NCBI GenBank assembly: GCA_028287785.1
Contig: JAQBOZ010000030.1
Coordinates: forward strand, 1-64,000
From: Chlorobiota bacterium
GTDB taxonomy: Bacteria; Bacteroidota; Ignavibacteria; OLB7
Direction of reading: 5' to 3'
DNA: 64,000 nt
The notes beneath the pieces are model-generated. The model had not been told where the DNA came from, searched no databases, and saw only the letters and a list, made by a program, of their open reading frames with translations. Shown one piece after another: positions 13,667-16,668 of this stretch. The position numbers were made by a program, and so were the translations under genes. Each line of letters opens with the position of its first letter. Within the stretch, counting starts at the first letter, position 1.

Positions 13667-14434
13667 CTACACCATCCGGCTTCTCAGCGTCCCCGAAATG
13701 AAATCGATTGCCATTACCAGCGCCACGATCACCAGCAGGATCATCGAGACGTTCTGATACTGGAACTGCCTGATGTTGTCCACCAGGAGAAAACCGATCC
13801 CCCCCGCGCCGACGATGCCGAGGACCACCGCGGAGCGGATATTGAGCTCCAGCCGGTAGAGAAAAAAGGAGACGATATGGGGGAGCACCTGCGGCACAAC
13901 GCCCCAGCGGATCACCTGCGACCGCGTCGCCCCGGTCGATTCGATAGCTTCGATGGGGCCGCGATCGATCGATTCGATCGCCTCGGCGAAGAGCTTCCCG
14001 AGCGAGCCGATGGTGTGGATCGCGATCGCCAGCGTTCCGGCGAGCGGGCCAAGCCCCACGGCCGCCACCAGCACCAGCGCCACAATCATCACATCCACCG
14101 AACGGTCGGCGTTGAAGAAGAATCGGGAGAGAGCCCCCACGGGGATCGATGGCGCGATATTCCGCGCGGCGAGAAAGGAGATCGGCAGGGCGATGATCGC
14201 GGCGATCAGCGTGCCGAGCCATGCGATCTGGATGGTGACGAGCGTCTGCGCCGCCACCTGATCCAGAATCGTCCAGTTGAGAGGCCAGAGCCCCGCCAGG
14301 AACTGCCGGAAGAAGGGCTTGCGGAAAAACCCGTCGATGATCGCGGCCGGATCGAACCCGGTGGCCTGAAGCGACCAGACGGTGAAGCCGATCACGACGG
14401 CCGCCAGGAGTATGTTGAAGGTACGTTTCGGCAT
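13667..14434 (-). CDS. phnE: Phosphonate-type ABC transporter permease
   Basis: This 255-residue inner-membrane permease has several hydrophobic helices and the cytoplasmic coupling motif EAIESTGATRSQVIRWGVVPQVLPH, whose EA...G...P pattern is typical of PhnE/PtxC permeases. It should form the channel for uptake of phosphonate, phosphite or a similar oxyanion. It follows the fused binding-protein/ATPase gene by 73 bases on the same strand, and the two genes together can make a whole transporter. No C-P lyase or phosphonatase gene is present in the window, so the substrate is open. Confidence 0.9.
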   Translation of the reverse strand: MPKRTFNILLAAVVIGFTVWSLQATGFDPAAIIDGFFRKPFFRQFLAGLWPLNWTILDQVAAQTLVTIQIAWLGTLIAAIIALPISFLAARNIAPSIPVGALSRFFFNADRSVDVMIVALVLVAAVGLGPLAGTLAIAIHTIGSLGKLFAEAIESIDRGPIEAIESTGATRSQVIRWGVVPQVLPHIVSFFLYRLELNIRSAVVLGIVGAGGIGFLLVDNIRQFQYQNVSMILLVIVALVMAIDFISGTLRSRMV

Positions 14435-14507: not shown

Positions 14508-16379
14508 CTACATCTCCTCAAGCTCCGCGCTCTCCGTCCGATAGATCTCCTCGACGATCTCCGGCGTCAGCATCCCCGGCGCGCCGTCGAAGGCGATCTC
14601 CCCCTTTCGGAACGCCACAATCCTGTCGGCATATTCGGTGGCGAGCTGAAGGACGTGGAGGCTGACGATCACGGTGATTCCCTCCTCACGGTTGAACCGG
14701 CGGAGCAGCCCCAGCACGATCTCCGCCAGCTTGGGATCGAGCGATGCCATCGGCTCATCGGCAAGGATCACCTTGGGACGCTGCGCCATCGCGCGGGCGA
14801 TCGCCACGCGCTGCTGCTGGCCGCCGGAGAGCCTGTCGGCGCGGGTGTTCATCTTTTCGGCAAGCCCGACCTCGCGGATATATCGCATCGCTATCTCCCG
14901 GTCCTCCCGCGGAAACCGGCCCAGCATCGAGGGGAGCCAGGAGACGTGGCTGAGGCGGCCGAGCAGGACGTTCCGGAGGACGGTGACGGTGCGGACCAGG
15001 TTGAACTGCTGGAAGATGAAGCCGATCTCCCGCCGGAGCCGCGTCAGCGCAGGGCCGGAGATGTGCGTGATGTCCGCGCCGTCGAAGAGCATGACGCCGG
15101 CCGATGGCTCGTTCATCCGGTTGAGCGCCCTGAGAAATGTCGATTTCCCCGCCCCCGACAACCCGATCACCGCCAGGAACTCCCCCGGCGCGATATCGAT
15201 GTTCACATCGCGGATCGGGGTGAACGGCCGGCCGCGATCGTCGAGGAAGGTGACGGCGAGCCCGCGGATCGAGAACCGCCAGCGCCTGTCCGGCGCGCCG
15301 TTGCCTGCTGCCGGCGATGCCTGGACGGCCGGTCGGCGTCGCGCCCGCAACGTCTGCACCAGCAGCAGGAGTATCCCGGCCGCCGCGGCAACCCCCAGCA
15401 CGATCATCGAAATCCGCCCGTTGCTCTTCCGCTCGGCGATCCGCGCCACATCCACCGCCGATGTTCCCGTATCAGCCCCCACATGGCCGGTGATATCGAG
15501 CTTCAGCAGCCTTGCCGCGTTGCGGACCGGCTCGTAGTCGGCGCTGGTGGCGGGGATCATCGCGTCAACGTGGTACATCGCCTGCATCAGCTTCTTCCCG
15601 GCGGAATCGGCGGTCAGCCCCTGAACGGTCGCGGTCAGGCGGGTGACGATATCGCGATGGTGATCGAGCATGAACTGCGAGGTGGCGAGGTTATCGCCGG
15701 GGATCGGGCCGGAGAAGAAGATGGGGCGGATTTTCGTTCTGTACGCGCCGTTGCCGAGCTGTGTCCATGAGCCATCGATCCCGTTCGTGTCGTTTGCGAA
15801 TGTCGCCCCGGCGGCGATGGTCCCGTTGATCACCGAGAGGATCACCGCGTCGTGTCCGCCGGCGAAGGTCTGGCGACCGAAGAAATGCTCGGGATCGATG
15901 CCGGCCTCCATCAGCGCGGCTTTCGGAAAGAGGTGGCCGGAGGCGGAGGTGGGATCGACCCAGGCGATATCACGCCCGCGGAGATCGGCGAGCGATCGGT
16001 AGGCGCTGTCCGCGTTGACGACGATGCAGCCATAGTAGTAGGGCTTTCCCTTCCGCTCCGCCTTCAGGAGCACGCGGGCATCGGCGATCCGTTCGGCGAA
16101 GACGTAGCTGACCGGCGCGAAGAAGGCGAAATCGACCTTCCGGCTCCTGAGCGCCTCCACCAGGCTGCTGTAATCCTGCGCCACGAAGATCTTCACCGGC
16201 ATCCCCATCCCCTTCCGGATCATCTCCGCGAGGATATCGGCGTTCCGGGCCACGTTCTCCGTCCGCTCGGAGGGGTTCAGCCCGATGACGATCTGGCGCT
16301 TTACCTCAGGCTCCGGGGCGCAGCCCGCGCCGGCGAGCATCGCGGCAAGGATGAAAAGGAGGATTGATCGGTGTCGCAT
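14508..16379 (-). CDS. Fused phosphonate-type binding lipoprotein and ABC ATPase (PhnD-PhnC)
   Basis: This single 623-residue protein joins two normally separate transporter subunits. Residues 1-20 are a lipoprotein signal with C20 in LAGAGC. Residues 25-305 are a PhnD-like periplasmic substrate-binding domain, with VDFAFFAPVSYV and WVDPTSASGHLFP. Residues 323-343 form a transmembrane helix followed by RARRR, which predicts a cytoplasmic C-terminus. Residues 367-612 are a complete PhnC ATPase: Walker A GLSGAGKST (406-414), Q457, signature LSGGQQQ (517-523), Walker B VILADE (537-542) and H575. The reading frame is uninterrupted across the junction. The permease gene phnE follows. The import role is inferred from the families; the substrate could be phosphonate, phosphite or phosphate. 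Confidence 0.93.
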   Translation of the reverse strand: MRHRSILLFILAAMLAGAGCAPEPEVKRQIVIGLNPSERTENVARNADILAEMIRKGMGMPVKIFVAQDYSSLVEALRSRKVDFAFFAPVSYVFAERIADARVLLKAERKGKPYYYGCIVVNADSAYRSLADLRGRDIAWVDPTSASGHLFPKAALMEAGIDPEHFFGRQTFAGGHDAVILSVINGTIAAGATFANDTNGIDGSWTQLGNGAYRTKIRPIFFSGPIPGDNLATSQFMLDHHRDIVTRLTATVQGLTADSAGKKLMQAMYHVDAMIPATSADYEPVRNAARLLKLDITGHVGADTGTSAVDVARIAERKSNGRISMIVLGVAAAAGILLLLVQTLRARRRPAVQASPAAGNGAPDRRWRFSIRGLAVTFLDDRGRPFTPIRDVNIDIAPGEFLAVIGLSGAGKSTFLRALNRMNEPSAGVMLFDGADITHISGPALTRLRREIGFIFQQFNLVRTVTVLRNVLLGRLSHVSWLPSMLGRFPREDREIAMRYIREVGLAEKMNTRADRLSGGQQQRVAIARAMAQRPKVILADEPMASLDPKLAEIVLGLLRRFNREEGITVIVSLHVLQLATEYADRIVAFRKGEIAFDGAPGMLTPEIVEEIYRTESAELEEM

Positions 16380-16437: not shown

Positions 16438-16602
16438 TCAGGTTTCGATCTTCACGGTGAACTCCCGCCCGCAGTGGGTGCATCGATAGACGATGGTGAT
16501 CCAGTTCACCGAACTATATGCCTCAAGCTCGACGAGTTCGCCCTTGCAGTCCTTCCAGATGCAGTGGGAAAGCTCCACATCGTATTCGCCAATATCAGCC
16601 AT
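16438..16602 (-). CDS. Small Cys-rich (zinc-ribbon-like) protein, 54 residues
   Basis: The frame encodes 54 residues with cysteines arranged as HCIWKDC and, 23 residues later, CTHCGREF. This resembles a small zinc ribbon. It is framed by an ATG at 16602 and a TGA at 16440-16438, and lies between the PhnD-PhnC fusion gene (58 bases downstream) and the PD40/OmpA gene upstream. All three are on the minus strand. The ribosome binding site is poor. The paired CxxC-like motifs make chance unlikely, but no family is recognised. Confidence 0.6.
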   Translation of the reverse strand: MADIGEYDVELSHCIWKDCKGELVELEAYSSVNWITIVYRCTHCGREFTVKIET

Positions 16603-16668
16603 GATCCATGCCTGTTGGTTGCTGGAATCGGAGGAGATAATCGAACTGCCGCGTGGCTCTCCGGGGGC

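Follow-up and report, generated by a model that had tools for sequence, protein, structure and literature searches.

ABC importers are usually drawn as three separable parts. At the locus considered here, which lies in a 64,000-nucleotide stretch of a Chlorobiota genome (contig JAQBOZ010000030.1, positions 1 to 64,000; hereafter the window), two of these parts – a PhnD-type substrate-binding protein and a PhnC-type ATPase – appear to share one gene. The questions raised are whether this gene is genuine, how it came about, and what a single chain with a binding domain at one end and an ATPase at the other would do.

One reading frame, two domains

The gene (Table 1) is a single open frame of 623 codons, running from ATG to TAG, whose product has a computed mass of 68.1 kDa; across the PhnD/PhnC junction the G+C content by codon position is steady and coding-like throughout. 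The N-terminal half matches the Pfam family Phosphonate-bd (residues 32-282; E 1.4e-52, 179 bits against a cut-off of 27) and TIGR01098 (4e-59, 200.2 bits against 112.05), and scores 171 against the narrower PhnD equivalog TIGR03431, below its cut-off of 261. Residues 388-614 match the PhnC model TIGR02315 (9.1e-88, 293.8 bits against a curated cut-off of 266.1), and the phnE product matches TIGR01097 (2e-87, 292.8 bits against 216.7). Open frame and profile matches together bear out the original prediction of one unbroken frame encoding PhnD, a helix and PhnC. The complete ATPase that it described is likewise present, with Walker A (K412), Q-loop (Q457), signature (LSGGQ, 517-521), Walker B (D541-E542), D-loop (D548) and H-switch (H575), these motifs being invariant or nearly so across an alignment of 38 sequences. 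The chain holds a single strong hydrophobic peak, with a mean hydropathy of 2.77 over 19 residues, and RARRR follows it. Judged by its domains the fusion is a member of the PhnCDE importer family, while its layout differs.

Table 1. Coordinates of the fusion gene, its parts, its neighbour and the reverse fusions (positions of the window unless a locus is named).
Feature	Position	Strand	Basis
phnDC fusion gene	14508..16379	-	open frame, domain matches, fused in 4 genomes
Signal sequence, about residues 1-20, loose lipobox LAGAGC with C20	16320..16379	-	hydropathy, alignment, sequence reading
PhnD-type substrate-binding domain, residues 28-298	15486..16298	-	Pfam/NCBIfam, PtxB/PhnD structures, model pLDDT mostly >90
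Outer linker, residues 299-322, partly unordered in model	15414..15485	-	alignment, hydropathy, model
Transmembrane helix, residues 323-341, inside model helix 308-348	15357..15413	-	hydropathy, model
Basic cluster RARRR and flexible inner linker, residues 342-365	15285..15356	-	pLDDT <50 at 349-364
PhnC-type ATPase domain, residues 366-623, catalytic motifs complete	14511..15284	-	TIGR02315, invariant motifs, MetN/ArtP/FtsE fold matches
phnE permease, 255 aa, 73 bp downstream of fusion gene	13667..14434	-	TIGR01097
PhnC-TM-PhnD fusions beside phnE	L106:2128-4077, L108:2022-3962, L134:722-2710, L135:773-2713, L137:558-2591		5 loci, checked by translation

A structure model was computed from the 38-sequence alignment, in which the rows for separate genes were neighbouring phnD and phnC read across the stop and served only as alignment; a model from the four known fusions alone (pLDDT 36.5) was discarded. 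In the retained model (mean pLDDT 86.7) confidence is high for both the binding domain and the ATPase, a single helix spans residues 308-348, and residues 300-307 and 349-364 are unordered; given a pTM of 0.51, the relative placement and orientation of the two domains are not predicted by it. Solved structures match the halves separately – PtxB the first, MetN, ArtP, FtsE and other ATPases the second – and none of the matches listed covers both.

Just upstream of the fusion gene lies a small cysteine-rich open reading frame (CxxxxC...CxxC; about 16441-16605 of the window, reverse strand), the product of which is probably a small zinc-binding protein.

Inheritance and single origin of the fusion

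A search of 60 relatives recovered the full-length fusion, with the same order of binding domain, helix and ATPase, in three further genomes: G001, from the window's own genus, and G003 and G004, from a sister genus. Together with the window's genome (G000) the carriers, uncultured bacteria of Bacteroidota/Chlorobiota type, thus span four genomes, two genera and one family, and their fusion proteins are about 65% identical. Both domains are conserved among the four, and the linkers vary in length and sequence (24-33 residues for the outer linker) while always staying in frame. The position and hydrophobicity of the helix are kept in all four, its sequence is not. As to the positive-inside flank that the original prediction gave this helix, a basic cluster does follow the helix in every fusion, on the predicted cytoplasmic side, but the segment preceding the helix is also basic in three of four relatives, so that the charge difference across the helix is modest.

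In trees of each half the four fusions form a single clade, with 100% support for both the PhnD and the PhnC half, which points to one old fusion event; in relatives from other families phnD, phnC and phnE are separate. An error of assembly or sequencing might be suspected given that all genomes compared are drafts. However, the same fusion in three other genomes speaks against both chance and misassembly: these are separately submitted drafts (a Chlorobiota, an Armatimonadetes and a Bacteroidetes bacterium by their submitters' names), and the linkers differ in length yet are all in frame. A stop codon at the junction in relatives, proposed at the outset as the mark of such an error, was seen in no full-length gene of the family, all of these being fused. 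We thus regard an artefact as extremely improbable; the fusion is real, inherited and the product of one old event.

One member of the family, G002, from a sister genus, retains just a broken remnant of the PhnD half, of about 97 codons and with an in-frame TGA (contig C116, 17241-17516; L075/L029). Such a fragment is what one would expect were the gene decaying and without function, but none of the four full-length copies has lost its catalytic or pocket residues, and drift is confined to the linkers and the sequence of the helix. Decay is therefore a highly improbable account of the full-length genes.

Fusions in other lineages

Beyond the family we surveyed samples of genomes, ranked by how similar they were overall to the query, and the counts from these surveys are lower bounds; a fusion was counted only where a full-length match ran without a stop or the frame had been checked by translation. 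Many long apparent frames were set aside on these grounds, most being pairs of genes that share a frame but are separated by a stop. No PhnD-PhnC fusion was found outside the family in a sample of 296 genomes from the window's phylum, nor in Bacillota (398 genomes, 13 long frames checked); in Pseudomonadota (the phylum of Sulfuricella; 398 genomes) none of the 20 frames checked was a fusion in the PhnD-PhnC order, and viral contigs yielded no relatives.

The Pseudomonadota survey did reveal the opposite arrangement, an unbroken PhnC-TM-PhnD frame, in two genomes, as well as a PhnD-PhnE frame in one. Full-length PhnC-PhnD fusions without a stop occur in at least 12 of 200 genomes of one Pseudomonadota order. 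Five such loci adjoin phnE (Table 1), the hydrophobic segment between PhnC and PhnD having been measured in L106 and L108. The two reverse fusions placed in the trees cluster with PhnC and PhnD of E. coli, well away from the window's fusion, and hence have a separate origin.

Gene order offers a simple account of both forms. phnD lies ahead of phnC in the window's class and in Bacillota, and the two often share a frame interrupted by one stop; in unfused relatives from the Pseudomonadota order phnC comes first. In each lineage the order within the fusion is the local order of the genes, and the joining of neighbours would explain both. For the window's fusion the most likely origin is that adjacent phnD and phnC were joined with the gain of a spacer helix. 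The form with PhnC first could have reused the signal sequence of PhnD as its membrane helix, while that with PhnD first would have needed a new one.

At L109:3116-5056 the frame shared by PhnD and PhnE spans 647 codons, with a separate phnC just upstream. In Bacillota two copies of PhnE are fused in one frame of about 520 residues (L126:3024-4580, L127:3184-4779, L128:3246-4841, L129:3166-4713, L130:827-2404 and L131:1090-2667).

The ligand pocket

The head-group residues of Te_PtxB – Y55, S130, S132 and H160 (PMC5700983) – correspond to Y70, S145, S147 and H176 of the fusion, and on this evidence the pocket should bind a phosphorus oxyanion head. The position of Te_PtxB T131 is taken by alanine in the window's fusion (A146) and in G001, and by threonine in G003 and G004. 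Phosphite, put forward as one possible ligand, is unlikely to be the specific substrate, as the fusions lack the tyrosine cap that is diagnostic for it: Y208 of Te_PtxB, which closes over the ligand and is described as strictly conserved among phosphite binders (PMC5700983), is replaced in each of the four by D229 (in IPGDN). The pair Glu177/Asp205, which in E. coli PhnD serves the amine of 2-aminoethylphosphonate (PMC12718374), is present in part, Asp205 corresponding to the same D229 and Glu177 not being conserved; the pocket residues thus lend no support to specificity for 2-aminoethylphosphonate.

The genomes themselves add to this picture. In the four fusion genomes PhnJ was not found at its curated cut-off, and no match to PhnX or PhnW reached theirs; PstB lies above its cut-off in all four. 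At curated cut-offs phosphonate use thus lacks a known catabolic partner gene, and catabolic genes give no pointer to the substrate. From the pocket we infer a substrate that is a small phosphorus oxyanion or a derivative of one.

Anchoring in the membrane

That the binding domain belongs to a lipoprotein was part of the original prediction, and the window's gene has a sequence that fits a lipobox loosely. This feature is not conserved: threonine precedes the cysteine in G001, and the cysteine is gone from G003 and G004. In other families of the class, separate PhnD proteins have a hydrophobic anchor at the N terminus and lack a lipobox; the closest separate relatives have the look of typical lipoproteins. 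The internal helix may have taken over the anchoring role that the lipid plays in free PhnD, and such a replacement fits the absence of the cysteine from G003 and G004.

At L086:3306-5801, L087:4946-7566 and L088:4376-6892 the genes for these closest separate PhnD proteins lie directly beside a long gene, which carries a chemoreceptor (MCP) signalling domain in both loci scanned (L086 and L088); neither phnC nor phnE occurs in the stretches examined around the three. The two genes possibly form a binding-protein chemosensor pair.

The permease partner

Each of the four fusion genomes contains exactly one full-length or strong PhnE match. The gene adjoins the fusion in G000, as predicted, and in G001, but in G003 and G004 it is found on another contig (L089:4237-5244 and L090:3975-4826), beside a queC-like gene, its product being 70-71% identical to the PhnE of the window. 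The two-protein importer first proposed – one chain of binding domain, helix and ATPase together with a PhnE partner – is what these gene contents imply.

A different role can be imagined, in which the fusion is a transmembrane sensor that passes the signal of an outside ligand through the helix to the ATPase inside. The company kept by its closest separate PhnD relatives (36-39% identity), whose genes neighbour one of chemoreceptor type but neither phnC nor phnE, is in keeping with this. Against it, the ATPase half scores above the cut-off for a PhnC importer subunit and has every motif, and each fusion genome has a phnE, which in two of the four adjoins the fusion. A sensor is therefore very unlikely.

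Discussion

Our data make it likely, and we hold this with good confidence, that the fusion supplies both binding protein and ATPase to an ABC importer of the phosphonate family encoded by two genes. Its working can be pictured as follows. The signal sequence would export the N-terminal binding domain and the internal helix would stop transfer, so that the ATPase stays in the cytoplasm. One transporter would then consist of two fusion subunits with two copies of PhnE, and would consequently bear two tethered binding domains. The linkers that flank the helix are flexible and seemingly long enough to let the domains dock on PhnE much as they do in the system of separate subunits, and alternating access would be driven by ATP in the normal manner. 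Because of the tether each ATPase would come with one binding protein, a fixed ratio of 1:1.

The fusion might instead be a mere precursor, cut in a linker after translation to give ordinary PhnD and PhnC; the linkers, unordered and variable, would tolerate cleavage. Yet the helix keeps a constant place in all four genomes, where separate subunits would have no need of it, and no protease site was identified. We consider such processing quite unlikely and retain the intact subunit as the preferred reading. A bolder proposal, that the ATPase-linked binding domain is a recurrent and undescribed importer layout, with at least two origins in opposite orders, and that the helix also relays the state of binding to the ATPase, is in our view unlikely.

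The significance of the arrangement lies in what it says of importers in general. A chain that joins binding domain and ATPase across the membrane indicates that the two ends of an importer can be tied to one another. It would also provide a naturally occurring importer of two proteins, with binding domains whose number and position are set, and so a means to ask if a binding protein has to dissociate in every transport cycle. Finally, two lineages with opposite orders that match their gene orders offer a test of how adjacent genes come to encode a fused membrane protein.

How does the fusion compare with known systems? Fusions of ATPase to permease are described in the literature; of a binding domain fused to an ATPase we found no description, although our coverage of the literature was partial and this is weak evidence. 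Among fused systems the nearest in kind are OpuA, GlnPQ, OpuF and EgtUBC, in which the binding domain is fused to the permease (PMC11065425, PMC8025302, PMC9732360). They share with the fusion a covalently tethered binding domain and an expected two copies per transporter; in them, however, the binding domain is carried by the permease, whereas here an additional helix links it to the ATPase and PhnE is encoded by a separate gene. In TAXI-GltS fusions a binding protein is also joined to a transporter component, but the transporter is a secondary one and has no ATPase (PMC12344293). The PhnC-TM-PhnD proteins of Pseudomonadota likewise combine binding domain and ATPase in a single polypeptide, separated by a hydrophobic segment (L106, L108) and with phnE adjoining, and differ in their opposite domain order and separate origin. 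The closest parallel in composition is PhnCDE/PtxABC (TC 3.A.1.9), with which the window's system has in common all three protein families, the head-group residues of the pocket, the ATPase motifs and the PhnE partner: where PhnD and PhnC are separate proteins in those importers, here they are a single membrane-crossing chain.
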